Assembly: GCA_027065695.1 (NCBI GenBank)
Contig: JAMONP010000024.1
Span: 1-43,763, forward strand
DNA from: Desulfuromonadales bacterium
GTDB lineage: Bacteria > Desulfobacterota > Desulfuromonadia > Desulfuromonadales > BM103
Direction: 5' to 3'
DNA: 43,763 nucleotides
Shown: positions 1,449 through 6,818 of the stretch, in pieces
Position numbering within the stretch: the stretch's first letter is position 1
Layout of the letters: every line of letters begins with the position of its first letter
Notes under the pieces: generated by a model
The model's database searches: none
Told to the model about the DNA's origin: nothing
What the model saw: only the letters and a program-made list of their open reading frames with translations
Made by a program: the position numbers and the translations under genes

Positions 1449-2366
1449 ATGGCATTGGAGAAGGCACAGTTGAAACAGCAGTTGATTCAATTGCTGACTG
1501 CTTTTGAGACCGGATCAAGGACAGACTTGCGTACACAGGTTTTGTCTCTATTGCCGATATGGGACTCGCTCAAAGAACTTGGAACTTCTTTGATCCCAGC
1601 TGATATGGCCAGATCAGCAAGAGATCGTATTTTGTTTTACCTGCAACAGTACCCATGTCAAATAATTTCACATAAAGAAATTATGATCGTTGCAGGTATC
1701 AGCGAGTGGGCCAGACGTGTGCGTGAATTGCGCGTTGAATTTGGTTGGGCAATAATGAGCGGGACAACTGCACGTGAAATGCAGGAAGCTGGCGAACTGG
1801 TTAAAGTGCCGGATTGTTCAGAGATGAGGCCGGAAGACTATATTCTGATTAATGAACATCAAGACAAAGAAGCTGCTTATCGCTGGAATGTTGCCAATGA
1901 GATTCGTAAAAGCGCAGGTGGCACAAAAGCGCATATCCTGGAATATTTACGTCGGAATGTCGGTAATCCTGTGAACGGTGAAGAGCTGAGATATGTTGCG
2001 AACAACACCACTGAATGGGCACGACGGGTAAGAGAACTGCGAACCGAAGACGGTTGGCCGGTCAGATCGCGACAGAACGGGAGGCCTGACCTTGCTGTCG
2101 GTGTTTATGTCTTGGAGGAAGACCGGCAAGCGTCAGCACACGATCGTAAAATTGATGATCGCGTGAGAAGAGATGTTCTGGTCAGAGACAGGTACTGTTG
2201 TGTGGATTGCGGTTGGACTCGCGAGCAATGGAATGCTGATGACCCTAGATATCTCGAATTGCACCACATGGAACACCATATTGATAAAGGCAGCAATACT
2301 GTTGAGAATTTAAAAACACTCTGTAATGTTTGTCATGATGTTTTACACAGGAAGAGCAACGACTGA
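1449..2366 (+). CDS. HNH endonuclease with duplicated N-terminal module, probable restriction partner of the methyltransferase
   Basis: This 305-aa protein carries a C-terminal zinc-finger-type HNH nuclease at about residues 238-300. CCVDC (250-254) and LCNVCHDVLH (291-300) supply the CxxC pairs, LHHMEHH (271-277) supplies the catalytic histidines, and ENLKTL carries the Asn. Ahead of it are two copies of a roughly 50-residue alpha-helical module. Each contains the identical decapeptide EWARRVRELR (residues 86-95 and 189-198), followed by GW and preceded by an ILxYL helix, which looks like a duplicated winged-helix DNA-reading unit. The gene starts four bases after the methyltransferase stop, the usual tight layout of a type II restriction-modification pair. 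HNH and the pairing are seen directly. A role as the cognate restriction enzyme, and the DNA-binding role of the repeats, are inferred. A solitary McrA-like, methylation-dependent nuclease is the main alternative. Confidence 0.85.
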   Translation: MALEKAQLKQQLIQLLTAFETGSRTDLRTQVLSLLPIWDSLKELGTSLIPADMARSARDRILFYLQQYPCQIISHKEIMIVAGISEWARRVRELRVEFGWAIMSGTTAREMQEAGELVKVPDCSEMRPEDYILINEHQDKEAAYRWNVANEIRKSAGGTKAHILEYLRRNVGNPVNGEELRYVANNTTEWARRVRELRTEDGWPVRSRQNGRPDLAVGVYVLEEDRQASAHDRKIDDRVRRDVLVRDRYCCVDCGWTREQWNADDPRYLELHHMEHHIDKGSNTVENLKTLCNVCHDVLHRKSND

Positions 2367-2695
2367 GTTTTAAAAAATCCGGCATGTGCTTATTTGAAAT
2401 TCAACAGTCAGCAGTTTTCTCAACTTTCCCATATCTTTGGTTTCGCACTGTCAGACTATCAGAACCTTCCATCCCAACCTTTCAAGTTAACGGCAGCTTT
2501 CGGCATCTCTATTGACATTTTGTGCGAACTTTTTGCCAAAAAACCGTGTTTATTTTTGGGGTAGAAGCATATTTCAGCCGAGATGTCTGTGCCCGTAGCA
2601 CCCGTGGACAAAAACGACGGTACGATACTTAACGAGCGTGATGTCGGGGCTACCGGGTAAGCTTTTTCGGTGCAAACGGAAACGTAACCCCATAG
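2367..2695 (+). other. Gene-poor stretch between the HNH gene and the nuclease remnant
   Basis: I see no convincing gene here. A frame of about 55 codons is open from near 2397 to a TAG near 2565 but lacks a recognisable family or a good ribosome site. The segment from about 2585 to 2695 has stops in all forward frames. It could be the eroded 5' part of the nuclease remnant that follows. Confidence 0.4.
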
Positions 2696-3156
2696 AGCGC
2701 ATCAGAGATCGAGTCAATATTTGTTAGGTGGGTTCAAGCTTCACCGGCGGTAACAATGTGGGATACGAAGAGCAAGGAAACCATATACGAATTCCCCAAC
2801 GACCATTTCAACCAATTCAGGCGCTACATACATAACTCAACCGAGCGGGTGAATTGTTTTATGGTGATTGCTCCAGAGATTTCAGATAAGGCTGAAGAAA
2901 ATGCCTATCGGCTTAAGACTCAATCTGGAACGGATACGGATCTGTCGCTTATTAGTGCTGATGATCTTAAATGGGTTGCAGAAAGCTGGGGCTCATATTC
3001 AAGCAATAGCAAGTTTTCTCTGGATATTTTTAATTTTACTGGAGTTCTTGGTCAAGGGAGTTTGAAGAAAAGGATGAAGATCTTTTTGAAGTAAACTTTG
3101 CAACAAGTCAAACCCCAGACAATTTGGATTTTAAATCTGTGGAAATCTTGAGGTAA
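2696..3156 (+). pseudogene. Frameshifted C-terminal remnant of a PD-(D/E)XK restriction-type nuclease
   Basis: The frame open from 2696, with an ATG at 2756, contains MWDTKSKE, then YEFPNDHFNQFRRYI, then CFMVIAPEI and LISADDLKWVAESW. This matches the second half of PD-(D/E)XK nuclease cores such as the FokI cleavage domain: a hydrophobic strand ending in DxK (here Asp-Thr-Lys), a helix ending in RYI, a core strand, and a late helix with a leucine-rich DL. The frame ends at 3094 with a basic, unlike tail. The overlapping frame reads EFEEKDEDLFEVNFATSQTP and ends in FKSVEILR before TAA at 3154-3156, which looks far more protein-like, so a frameshift lies near 3043-3061. The N-terminal half with the PD motif and any recognition domain is absent. 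It is therefore called a broken gene. A sequencing error could explain the frameshift but not the missing N-terminus. Confidence 0.55.
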
Positions 3157-3158
3157 TC

Positions 3159-3371
3159 ATGAGGCAAAAAAGATTGTTGTGGAGATCTGGAAAAGACAAA
3201 TTGAACAACGGCCAAAGAGATTACTTTGGAACCAAAGAAAAAATTCCTCCGCCAATTCCAGAAACGATTCTTCCTGCGTTTCCATATGCCTTTCATCCTT
3301 GGGACTACGATCGCAACCGGAATGCTCAACAGGAGGAACAGCACATAAGGCTTATCCCGTCAAACGCATGA
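3159..3371 (+). CDS. Small protein of unknown function (70 aa) next to the nuclease remnant
   Basis: The ATG lies two bases after the TAA that closes the shifted frame of the nuclease remnant, and AGG sits six bases upstream, so it could have been translated with that gene. The protein is basic at the start (MRQKRLLWRSGK) and has a Pro/Phe-rich middle (KIPPPIPETILPAFPYAFHPWDYD). No signal peptide, membrane segment or family motif is recognised. Another frame of similar size overlaps it (3179-3403), so coding is not certain. The tight spacing and sensible residue composition favour this frame. Confidence 0.35.
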   Translation: MRQKRLLWRSGKDKLNNGQRDYFGTKEKIPPPIPETILPAFPYAFHPWDYDRNRNAQQEEQHIRLIPSNA

Positions 3372-3403
3372 ATCCCACTTTTAACATCCTGACTGTCTAT
3401 TGA

Positions 3404-3542
3404 GGTTTTCGACCAAGCAGGGATATTTCAATTATCTTTCGACATTTTTATGTGGTTTTCGACCCCGTCTTCATATATAGTCAATTTCGACTAAAATGAT
3501 ATTTATCTAGCCATATTCGACTTTAGCGAACGGTTTTCGACC
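3404..3542 (+). promoter_or_regulatory. Phased array of six TTCGAC boxes running into the fic start codon
   Basis: TTCGAC occurs at 3408, 3438, 3458, 3486, 3516 and 3536, all in the same orientation, with spacings of 30, 20, 28, 30 and 20 bases. Boxes 1, 3 and 6 share the longer form GGTTTTCGACC, and the last one ends at base 3542, directly before the ATG at 3543. The second trio repeats the 30/20 spacing of the first, offset by 78 bases. Box 4 sits in a small palindrome (TAGTC-AATTTC-GACTA, 3479-3492). Near-multiples of about 10 bp place the boxes on one face of the helix, as expected for cooperative repressor binding. The function is inferred. Confidence 0.65.
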
Positions 3543-5102
3543 ATGGAACTGCAACTTGACGACCTTGCCTACTTTCAGGACGACCCAATTCCCGAAAACA
3601 CGCAACTGGTCGGCTGGTCGGCTCTGGTACATGGGCTGGAGGTCGCAGCGCCGGTTCGAAACCTCTGCTGTGTTTCCAGCCGACATGTCAAGAACAGTCA
3701 GCGACTGGAGGGTCACTGGCGTATTTTTGACAAACGCTACGCACCGGCAGCAACAGCCATTGACCATTTGGCTTTTGCCATGCGTCATGAGGAGATCGAC
3801 CTGCTGATCCTGAAAAGGGCCTTGGATCGAATTCCACCGAATGAATTGTGCCATTTTATCAAAGCAACCCCCACAGGAGCCCTCACCCGCCGCATCTGGT
3901 TTTTTTATGAAACCCTGACCGGCCGACAGCTTGATCTCGCTGATGCGCCCAATGTTGCCGCCGTTGATGCACTTGATCCACGAAACTACATCACCGGACC
4001 AATCCGTCAGTCGAGTCGGCACCGCGTACGTGACAATCTTTTGGGCCAGGGCGGGTTTTGTCCGATCGTCCGCAGAACCGAAAAAATACAAACATTGATC
4101 GAGCTTGAGCTGGCAGATCAGGCCGCCAGCACGGTCGGGCGAACCGGGGCGCGGTTATTGGCCCGTGCGGCAAGTTTTATGTTGCTTGCCGACAGTAGGG
4201 CCAGTTTCGAGATTGAGGGGGAACGGGCACCGCAAAATCGCCTGGAACGTTGGGGCCGGGCGGTTCTGGAAACCGGGAAACGGCCGCTCAACCAAACCGA
4301 AATATATCGCCTGCATCGTATAATGACCGGAGACGATCGGTTTACCCGGATCGGTTACCGAAACGATGGGGTCTTTCTTGGGGAACGTGATCATAACAAC
4401 GATCCGCTACCGGAATTTATCGGTGCACGCCCGGAGGATGTGCCCGACCTCATGCTGAGTCTGAACAACTGCAATAACCGCATGCGGGGAACAGACATCG
4501 ATCCGGTCATTCAGGCTGCAATTTTAGCTTTCGGCTTTGTCTTTATCCATCCCCTGGAGGATGGCAACGGGAGGCTGCATAGGTGCCTCATCCATCACGT
4601 TTTGACGGAACGCCACTTTGCCCCGCCGGGCATGGTCTTTCCGGTCTCGAGTGTCATGCTGGACCGCATTGATGAATACCGCAGAACCTTGCAGAAACAT
4701 ACCGGACCGCTGATGGATTTTATCGAATGGACAGCGACTGCAGATAAAAACGTCGAGGTCTTGAATGATACGCTTGACCTCTACCGCTACTTTGACGCCA
4801 CAGATGCTGCCGAATTCCTTTACACCTGCGTCAAAAGGACCATTGAACATGATCTGCCAAAAGAAATTTCCTATTTACTCGCCCATGACGTCGCCATGGA
4901 AGAGATTATGAAAATCGTGGAAATGCCGGATCGGCTTGCCGGAAACCTGATTCATTTCGTGCGTCAAAATGATGGGTCATTGTCAAACAAGCGCCGCAAG
5001 AAGGAATTTTCCGCTCTGACCGATAAGGAAGTCAAGACTGTAGAGGAGATCATTCAACAGGCCTTCAAAGAGTACGCAGCAGGCTTCAACCACGAGCAGT
5101 GA
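3543..5102 (+). CDS. Fic-family protein (AMPylase, self-inhibited class II type) with a long N-terminal domain
   Basis: Fic enzymes transfer AMP or related groups from nucleotides to hydroxyl side chains of target proteins. The core motif HPLEDGNGRLHR (residues 336-347) matches HxFx(D/E)GNGRxxR, with Leu replacing the usual Phe. SFEIEG (221-226) fits the inhibitory (S/T)xxxE(G/N) motif and lies N-terminal to the core, as in class II Fic proteins, where the Glu blocks productive ATP binding. At 519 aa the protein is long. About 200 residues precede the inhibitory helix (including RRIWFFYETLTGR and DPRNYITGPIRQSSRHRV), and a helical C-terminal region of about 150 residues follows the core. No separate antitoxin gene is seen, consistent with built-in inhibition. 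The start is fixed by ATG 3543, which abuts the last TTCGAC box. No ordinary ribosome site is visible, so translation may be weak or regulated. A target or defence role is inferred from the neighbouring R-M genes. Confidence 0.9.
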   Translation: MELQLDDLAYFQDDPIPENTQLVGWSALVHGLEVAAPVRNLCCVSSRHVKNSQRLEGHWRIFDKRYAPAATAIDHLAFAMRHEEIDLLILKRALDRIPPNELCHFIKATPTGALTRRIWFFYETLTGRQLDLADAPNVAAVDALDPRNYITGPIRQSSRHRVRDNLLGQGGFCPIVRRTEKIQTLIELELADQAASTVGRTGARLLARAASFMLLADSRASFEIEGERAPQNRLERWGRAVLETGKRPLNQTEIYRLHRIMTGDDRFTRIGYRNDGVFLGERDHNNDPLPEFIGARPEDVPDLMLSLNNCNNRMRGTDIDPVIQAAILAFGFVFIHPLEDGNGRLHRCLIHHVLTERHFAPPGMVFPVSSVMLDRIDEYRRTLQKHTGPLMDFIEWTATADKNVEVLNDTLDLYRYFDATDAAEFLYTCVKRTIEHDLPKEISYLLAHDVAMEEIMKIVEMPDRLAGNLIHFVRQNDGSLSNKRRKKEFSALTDKEVKTVEEIIQQAFKEYAAGFNHEQ

Positions 5103-5180
5103 ACCGCAGGACCCACAAAATATGCTCCTTGCAGGTAGCCCAGGTACGATCTGGTCAAGAAGCAGTAGCCATTGGAGGTC

Positions 5181-5204
5181 GGGGACACACACAATGGGTA
5201 TCCC
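5181..5204 (+). repeat. Degenerate relative of the 112-139 palindrome
   Basis: GGGGACACACACAATGGG followed by TATCCC resembles the left-hand hairpin (GGGGACACCCA...TGGGTGTCCC) but is imperfect. It lies in the 174-base gap between the convergent fic and M48 genes, so the two related elements bracket the accessory block. The relationship is by eye and may be coincidence. Confidence 0.3.
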
Positions 5205-5276
5205 GCGGGCCACTTTAAATTGCATGATTGCAACCCTGCGGCCTCCTATCGTGTCAATGGAACTCCAGGCAGACCG

Positions 5277-6818
5277 TTAACGGGCAACCTTTGCACCAAT
5301 AATACCGGCCTGCAACGTCTTGATCTGCTCCGGAGTCAGCTTTCCCGTCAAACCGAGATCAAAGATCTTTCGACTTCCGGCAGTGACCGTACCCTGTAAT
5401 TTGCGTTGCAGCTTCTGCACCTTACCGTCAGCATTTCTAGCTTGAAGGATCAGCACAATCTTGTTGATATCTCTCGGCGTCGGATTGCTGACCTGCACCA
5501 CGATTCTACCCTGGGCGTCTTGCCCCGCTCTGACCTTGATATATTTGGCAGGATTATCTTGCAGATCCAGATCCACCAGTGAACCGTAGGCCTTCTGACC
5601 TACTTCGCCCTCGCTGCCCACCTTGACAAAATACGCCTTGGCCTCATTGAGGCGACCAGCCTTTTGAGCCAGATTGCCAAGCGAGTTATAAGCATCACCA
5701 GTAGGCAGAAGTTCGACGCTACGCTCCAGATCAGACTGGGCCTGCATGTTAAGCTGCAACTGTTCTTCCACCTTGCCTCGCTGCAAATAGTAGTAAAAGA
5801 AGTTCGGATTCAGCTTGGTTGCCTTGTAGTACTGCTGTAGCGCTGGCTTCAACCGGCCTTTCTCCTGTTCCACATCGCCCTTTAGCCCATAGAAGAGAGC
5901 CTCTTTTGGCTCCATGCTGATGGCTCGTTGCGCCAGCCTCCCGGCTTTTGCAATTTCATCCTTGGTGAGCGCCTTGCGACCCTTATCATAGGCCTCGTAA
6001 GCTGGTTTGGTTTTGAGCAGGTGGGCAATTTTGGCACGATAACGCGCGACCCCTAACTCGCCGCCCTTGGGCATTGTCGCCGCCAGTTTGATATTGTTTT
6101 GCACACGTTCCTGAGACGGCGGATGACTGGCAAAAAGACCCGTTATCCAGTCTTGTTGCTTGCCTTCTGAGAGTTTGACAAAAGTACGTTGAAGGTTGAC
6201 GGCTCCCTGCGGGTCATAACCGGCACGCACCATATACTGCATACCGTATAAATCTGATTCACGTTCAGCATCGCGACCATATTTCTGGGTGATCAGTTGC
6301 GCCCCGAGGCCCGCGCCCATCTGAGCTAAATTTGCATAACTGGTCCCCTGGGTAGCAAGAGCGGCACCTGCGGCACCAGCTTGTAGCAACATCCCTTTCG
6401 ACATGCTCTGGGCACCATGTCTGGCTGCTGCATGCACGATCTCATGACCAAGCACGGCTGCCAGCTCAGCTTCGCTCTGCAACTCTGTCAACAGGCCACG
6501 GTTGATGGAAATTTTGCCACCTGGCAGCGCCCAGGCGTTTGGTACGGAGCTGTTCAATACTTTAAACTCATAGGGTAGTTTGCGATCACTAACCGCGGCC
6601 AGCTTCTGTCCCACCTGACTCACATAGGCGGTCAGCTCGTGATCTACAACGTAATCGCCCCCCTGAGACTGACGTGCTGGCGCATACTGCTCCTCGCCAA
6701 TGGCAATTTCCTGTTGTTCACTGACCAGACTTAACTCATTCCTGCCAGTCACCGGGTTGACTGCACAACCAGCGAGGAGAGCAAACATTGCCCAAAGTAA
6801 TAGTTGTCTTTTCACCAT
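5277..6818 (-). CDS. M48-family zinc metalloprotease lipoprotein with TPR repeats (BepA/YfgC-like)
   Basis: This is a probable periplasmic or outer-membrane-attached protease for quality control of outer-membrane protein assembly, the known role of BepA-type M48 proteins. The N-terminus MVKRQLLLWAMFALLAGC is a lipoprotein signal with the lipobox LAGC (Cys18). Zinc ligands lie in GHEIVHAAARH (HExxH at 125-129), with the third ligand expected in DAERESDLYG near residue 185. The substrate-groove segment VPNAWALPGGKISINRGLL precedes the active site. TPR-like helices fill about residues 270-400, followed by a C-terminal beta-rich domain of about 90 residues. Length (513 aa) is normal for the family. 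An AAGGA ribosome site precedes the ATG. It is transcribed alone and converges on fic. Confidence 0.92.
   Translation of the reverse strand: MVKRQLLLWAMFALLAGCAVNPVTGRNELSLVSEQQEIAIGEEQYAPARQSQGGDYVVDHELTAYVSQVGQKLAAVSDRKLPYEFKVLNSSVPNAWALPGGKISINRGLLTELQSEAELAAVLGHEIVHAAARHGAQSMSKGMLLQAGAAGAALATQGTSYANLAQMGAGLGAQLITQKYGRDAERESDLYGMQYMVRAGYDPQGAVNLQRTFVKLSEGKQQDWITGLFASHPPSQERVQNNIKLAATMPKGGELGVARYRAKIAHLLKTKPAYEAYDKGRKALTKDEIAKAGRLAQRAISMEPKEALFYGLKGDVEQEKGRLKPALQQYYKATKLNPNFFYYYLQRGKVEEQLQLNMQAQSDLERSVELLPTGDAYNSLGNLAQKAGRLNEAKAYFVKVGSEGEVGQKAYGSLVDLDLQDNPAKYIKVRAGQDAQGRIVVQVSNPTPRDINKIVLILQARNADGKVQKLQRKLQGTVTAGSRKIFDLGLTGKLTPEQIKTLQAGIIGAKVAR

Follow-up and report, generated by a model that had tools for sequence, protein, structure and literature searches.

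The window analyzed here, a 43,763-nucleotide stretch of DNA from a Desulfuromonadales bacterium (contig JAMONP010000024.1), contains a gene for a Fic family protein (fic). Upstream of fic, the window contains a methyltransferase gene, an HNH gene and an open reading frame of 112 aa (orf112). The first two, a C5-cytosine methyltransferase gene followed by the gene for a 305-aa HNH nuclease (positions 131-2366), are probably a restriction-modification pair. The HNH protein has an internal duplication (residues 61-118 versus about 163-221, 41%) and a weak match to HTH_39 below the cut-off.

The fic gene is preceded by six TTCGAC boxes on the plus strand, which start at positions 3408, 3438, 3458, 3486, 3516 and 3536. 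From box 1 to box 6, the spacings are 30, 20, 28, 30 and 20 bp, and box 6 ends one base short of the fic ATG (3543). The features are as follows.

3408..3413, plus strand: box 1, TTCGAC, trio 1 (from the sequence; kept in relatives L056, L060, L062 and L065)
3438..3443, plus strand: box 2, TTCGAC, trio 1, at +30 (from the sequence and box conservation in relatives)
3458..3463, plus strand: box 3, TTCGAC inside GGTTTTCGACC, trio 1, at +50 (sequence and box conservation in relatives)
3476..3481, plus strand: TATAGT, a candidate -10 element in the gap from box 3 to box 4 (shared with L056, L060 and L065; suggestive only)
3486..3491, plus strand: box 4, TTCGAC, trio 2 (sequence and box conservation in relatives)
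3516..3521, plus strand: box 5, TTCGAC, trio 2, at +30 (sequence and box conservation in relatives)
3536..3541, plus strand: box 6, TTCGAC inside GGTTTTCGACC, trio 2, at +50, in the position of a ribosome site (sequence and conservation)
3543..5102, plus strand: gene for a Fic family protein, 519 aa, PADLOC PDC-S24 (domain and profile matches)

The initial annotation had described six same-orientation boxes with these spacings, forming two trios 78 bp apart, and the coordinates were borne out. At the offset of 78 bp, the boxes of trio 1 and trio 2 are identical at 18 of 18 positions and their spacers at 15 of 38; a recent duplication of the trio was rejected on the spacer count.

Fic is the only Pfam domain in the 519-aa product (E 6.2e-13). 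Residues 20-511 of the protein also match positions 4-492 of the 497 positions in PADLOC profile PDLC04966 for PDC-S24 (E 1.6e-186). PADLOC gives no description for PDC-S24, and the term was not found in the open-access literature searched; the protein is a phage-defence candidate, and an anti-phage role is suggested by this candidate status. The protein falls far short of SoFic, with a score of 29.9 bits against NCBIfam NF046030 (SoFic), for which the cut-off is 550. The same genome also has a SoFic-type Fic gene (G000:C98:2021-3067, E 1.5e-116).

In class II Fic proteins, an inhibitory motif, (S/T)xxxE(G/N), precedes the Fic core on the N-terminal side. The window protein contains a motif of this type, S221-FEI-E225-G226, and in an alignment of 43 homologues E225 is invariant and S221 is kept in at least 90%, while the G is lost in the distant rows displayed. 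The Fic motif itself, HPLEDGNGRLHR at residues 336-347, has Leu in the Phe position of HxFx(D/E)GNGRxxR, the form printed for class II Fic (PMC9755527); H336, D340, G341, N342, G343, R344 and R347 are invariant in the same alignment. The S221xxxE225G motif would fit an autoinhibited class II Fic enzyme.

In the whole window, TTCGAC occurs 32 times on both strands versus 22 expected, and six of the 32 are in the array. A search of the organism's own genome (3,386,556 bp in 108 contigs) for three TTCGAC boxes with gaps of 8-30 gave four overlapping matches, all inside the array, while the reversed control of the pattern gave one match. By this pattern search, there is no second triple TTCGAC array in the 3.39-Mb genome, and the boxes do not occur at equal density elsewhere in it. 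Pairs of TTCGAC alone are not above chance in the genome: the pattern TTTCGAC-N10-26-TTTCGAC had three matches, all in the array, and its reversed control also had three.

We then compared the array with the upstream DNA of four close relatives, whose Fic proteins are 93, 92, 82 and 77% identical to the window protein. In that order, 36, 36, 36 and 35 of the 36 box bases are kept, as are 76, 75, 63 and 61 of the 99 spacer bases. Further upstream of the array, 66-73 of 134 bases are kept in the four relatives. The retention of the boxes while the spacers drift points to selection on the array. In the wider group around the window (10 of 14 members), at least five boxes match TTCGAY at 5 or more of 6 positions, with shifts of up to 4 nt allowed.

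Homologues of the window protein were gathered from genomes, plasmids and viral contigs; those outside the window's phylum came from plasmids and possibly viral contigs only. After eight duplicates or copies of the window were removed by hand and three short matches and five loci without usable upstream DNA were dropped, 87 loci remained, and the 70 that were less than 90% identical in protein made up the nonredundant set. Start codons were assigned by script, except for L044 and L062, which were assigned by hand. The stretch from -210 to +60 of each locus was searched for a trio with gaps of 29-31 and 19-21, and the result was compared with 300 dinucleotide shuffles of that stretch. A trio at 0, +30 and +50 was significant (P ≤ 0.05) in 66 of the 70 homologues, 57 of them at P ≤ 0.01, and was without significance in L044, L063, L097 and L101. 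Homologues thus have iterated boxes on the same ruler, usually with another word outside the window's clade. Among the controls, the test was significant in 2 of 30 SoFic upstream regions, which is about chance, in 2 of 66 stretches from the 3' end of fic and in 3 of 70 stretches of coding sequence. With 60 shuffles, the counts were 65 of 70 homologues and 2 of 30 SoFic regions.

The spacing was also scanned over every combination of two gaps between 13 and 45 (1,089 pairs), with the homologues divided by identity to the window protein into group A (n = 14, ≥55%), group B (n = 28, 41-52%) and group C (n = 28, <40%). The pair (30,20) ranked first of the 1,089 in all three groups, with combined z values of 12.7, 15.6 and 17.8. 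For the 30 SoFic controls, the top pair was (22,41), with a z value of 6.1, and (30,20) was absent from the best 12. The SoFic upstream regions (L104-L133) have a smaller excess of their own, for example at (22,41), perhaps from another operator layout.

That the array arose by chance or by repeat expansion and has no function would agree with the recurrence of short words, including the number of TTCGAC expected in the window and the tie between the pair pattern and its control. The triple array is unique, however, the boxes outlast the spacers, the ruler recurs in nearly all homologues and the two trios have unlike spacers, and we give a functionless array a negligible probability. Plasmid iterons were ruled out, since the array precedes fic and not rep and such arrays are found on long genome contigs as well as on plasmids.

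Among the 70 homologues, 27 have a putative second trio that passes a score cut-off of 28/42, and in these the distance between trios ranges from 66 to 133. Because the inter-trio distance varies and the within-trio 30/20 spacing does not, the trio is likely the binding unit, with the reservation that the within-trio spacing was fixed to ±1 by construction. The proposal in the initial annotation that the array is helically phased stands for the spacings of 20 and 30 bp, which are about two and three helical turns; for the 28 bp from one trio to the next the fit is poorer, and the inter-trio distance varies among homologues. In L098, L083 and L085, the trio words resemble the reverse strand (AGTGAAGAAA, AAAAAGTGTG), while the 30/20 order relative to the gene is unchanged.

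In part of the middle group, the trio straddles the start codon and reaches the first codons (about -10, +19 and +39). In L039, L076, L089 and L093, the boxes extend into the coding sequence and the proteins share an FSGPxxxFxE N terminus, a protein motif that may exist owing to the DNA constraint. No homologue was found in 50,697 phage records at E 1e-10. IMG/VR contigs hold 12 homologues, and the seven of these among the 70 each have a trio at P ≤ 0.033.

The closest relatives (L056, L060 and L065) retain the TATAGT that lies between box 3 and box 4. The mean best match to TATAAT over 14 relatives was 4.36/6 in the gap between boxes 3 and 4, no better than the 4.29/6 in the gap between boxes 1 and 2, and the promoter scan tool picked another site (3470-3497). 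TATAGT as the -10 element is therefore suggestive only; it would put boxes 4-6 at and after the transcription start. As the initial annotation had noted, there is no normal ribosome site in the window: the best match to AGGAGG from -20 to -4 is 3/6. In the window's group, 4 of 14 members reach 5/6.

If TATAGT were the -10 element, boxes 4-6 would be in the mRNA leader, with box 6 in the ribosome-site position, and the boxes could act there by translational control or RNA structure. An RNA element was rejected, as there was no Rfam match in 2300-5400 and no unusual fold in the leader (3486-3580, z 0.09). Moreover, trio 1 would be upstream of such a leader, and in other homologues the trios lie at other places with respect to the start codon, some of them spanning it. 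Action in the leader is thus very improbable.

The word in the boxes differs among homologues. Most of the window's group has TTTTCGAC, while TTTTCGAT is found in L034, L037 and L087, a TTTGGCGAC-like word in L038 and a TTTTCCA-like word in L036. Many of the middle group have TTTTCATG or TTTTCAGG, with GTTTTGCA in L055, and many of the distant group have TAACTATTTTTCTTG-like or TAATNNTTTTACCA-like words. Within the genus g217, TTTTCAT boxes (L053 and L054) and TTTTACCA-like boxes (L066) accompany different Fic proteins. A Sinorhizobium plasmid with a Fic protein 62% identical to that of the window has TTTTCGACC boxes; the window's nearest named relatives are deltaproteobacterial, with two of three titles naming Geopsychrobacter or Desulfuromonadales. 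In these examples, the box word appears to follow the Fic protein and not the host.

We then analyzed the correlation between box similarity and protein identity in the 65 loci whose trio was significant with 60 shuffles. For the N-terminal region, rho was 0.433, which was reached in 0 of 500 permutations; for the Fic and C-terminal regions, rho was 0.415 and 0.405. Joint descent of the gene and its upstream DNA would also yield such a correlation, and it contributes to the one found here. The partial rho values were 0.18 for the N-terminal region given Fic, 0.10 for the C-terminal region given Fic and 0.12 for Fic given the N-terminal region, and the top subregions were residues 71-130 (0.498) and 451-510 (0.466). 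Assigning a DNA-binding domain by regional correlation was given up, as the three regions are nearly equal and no domain was singled out. The N-terminal domain, which the initial annotation had put forward as the binder, is accordingly one candidate only.

Domain searches were also carried out. In Pfam, Fic was the one family that more than two of the 43 members matched; the matches to other families were weak (E ≥ 0.03), and none of the 16 families listed is an HTH family. A profile of the 43 matched 32 PDB sequences at E ≤ 1, and the matches listed cover the Fic core and its immediate flanks. The N-terminal 200 residues of the window protein matched no PDB chain even at E 10, and the C-terminal 125 residues had weak, unrelated PDB matches only. 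Neither Pfam nor the PDB sequences yielded a DNA-binding match. A search for the N-terminal region across 271 genomes of the class gave 31 matches, of which 29 lay in open frames of at least 462 aa and the other two in short ones (126 and 65 aa); at that sensitivity, no second gene family with the N-terminal region but without Fic was found in these genomes.

The upstream neighbours were searched for in 20 wider fic loci, 16 with about 8 kb of the upstream side and four (L002, L003, L004 and L032) with 3-4 kb; two pairs among the 20 are the same place. No relative of the methyltransferase, the HNH protein or orf112 was found in these loci (E 1e-3). A narrower check, in which few loci reach 2.1 kb upstream (1 of 87 besides L002-L004), had the same outcome, with one methyltransferase-like match beside a SoFic control gene. 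In the plasmid records (n = 28, of which five list no feature in the stretch), the annotated neighbours within 0.5-4 kb varied and none recurs regularly beside fic; an AAA ATPase is downstream of fic in two of the records (L033 and L093). In these loci, the array goes with fic and not with its upstream neighbours.

It had been suggested that the nearby cytosine methyltransferase could tune the boxes through TCGA. Only 16 of the 70 homologues have TCGA in two or more of the three boxes of their best trio: all 14 of group A, two of the 28 in group B and none of the 28 in group C. With this distribution, and with no relative of the methyltransferase found in the 20 wider loci, tuning by the neighbouring enzyme is not supported.

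Control of fic might instead lie with another protein that binds the boxes, for instance an unlinked antitoxin or a regulator of the host. Such a regulator would be compatible with the Pfam and PDB searches, which name no DNA-binding domain in Fic. On the other hand, different Fic proteins of a single genus or a single class have different box words, and a related Fic from another phylum again has TTTTCGAC. In the wider loci, the window's neighbours are absent beside relatives, and the annotated plasmids have no regular fic neighbour within 0.5-4 kb. We consider control by another protein unlikely.

The array is probably a private operator of fic that is bound by the Fic (PDC-S24) protein itself for autorepression. 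We infer from sequence comparison the Fic protein as the binder, repression on binding, the location of the promoter and the relief of repression. Each trio, with its three boxes in one orientation at 0, +30 and +50, would be occupied by a single Fic oligomer. Together the two trios would span the promoter region and the expected start of transcription, the leader and, within this clade, also the position of a ribosome site. The Fic protein on the trios would shut off its own synthesis. When the recognition surface of Fic changes, the boxes would change along with it while the ruler stays fixed, and once repression is relieved, as might happen during phage infection, the Fic enzyme would be able to act. 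The idea of cooperative autoregulation by Fic in the initial annotation is well supported, if indirectly, by the conserved ruler, the variation of the word with the protein and the tie of the array to the gene.

Several known systems resemble parts of this proposal. CccR, a class II Fic protein of Yersinia pseudotuberculosis, is an autorepressor that binds the promoter of its gene close to the -35 and -10 elements (PMC9755527). The window Fic would be like CccR in class and in self-repression, the latter being proposed from sequence for the window Fic. However, CccR uses a C-terminal HTH to protect a 46-nt inverted repeat with 10-bp arms and a 26-nt spacer (PMC9755527), while the array in the window consists of two trios of direct repeats, all six on the same strand, and the Fic protein is larger, its N-terminal region being unannotated. 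RptR silences a defence island, its own locus, through short repeated promoter sites to which it binds cooperatively (PMC12255303). Unlike the window Fic, RptR is a separate small repressor, with three 9-bp direct repeats that hold the palindrome TAGCTA, and its site is reported as highly conserved (PMC12255303), in contrast to the diversified boxes of the Fic family. SoFic is an anti-phage class II Fic protein that is neutralized by the small protein AS1 (PMC12249575).

In BstA, a defence protein has a cognate short DNA element, aba, that overlaps the gene start, and the variants are specific (PMC8585504). BstA is regarded as belonging to a different protein family, and the available text describes aba as a 63-bp self-immunity element with no 30/20 ruler (PMC8585504). 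By analogy with aba, the array could be a cognate DNA element that holds Fic inactive, a DNA antitoxin or self-immunity element, with autorepression secondary. Two trios for one gene would fit such an element, as would the diversification of the words with the protein, which parallels that of BstA variants with their cognate aba (PMC8585504), and the activity of another Fic protein, CbFic2, is induced by DNA binding (PMC10628234). The position before the gene, however, is explained more simply by autorepression, and we regard a primary role in self-immunity as quite unlikely. In a doubtful extension of the same idea, the trios would keep Fic in store on the fic promoter, oligomeric and silent, and loss, degradation or titration of the array in infection would free both new synthesis and active enzyme. 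If the array were a DNA antitoxin, the diversification of the boxes would make each Fic protein answer only to its own copy.

A self-repressing Fic protein is thus already known in CccR, while the ruler with diversified boxes appears, on limited evidence, to be new. The 30/20 ruler is not described in the available text of the reports on CccR, RptR, BstA, CbFic2 and SoFic, and no report of a conserved ruler with diversified boxes was found in the open-access literature, as judged by titles and the beginnings of abstracts.

The ruler helps to place the start codon and control region when these fic genes are annotated, and it bears on the silencing of class II Fic proteins that are encoded by single genes. 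If autorepression through the array is correct, the combinations of Fic protein and box word that occur in nature (a significant trio in 66 of 70 homologues) would be a ready-made data set for the recognition of DNA by protein residues, and a Fic defence candidate of several phyla would have a built-in, self-specific switch.
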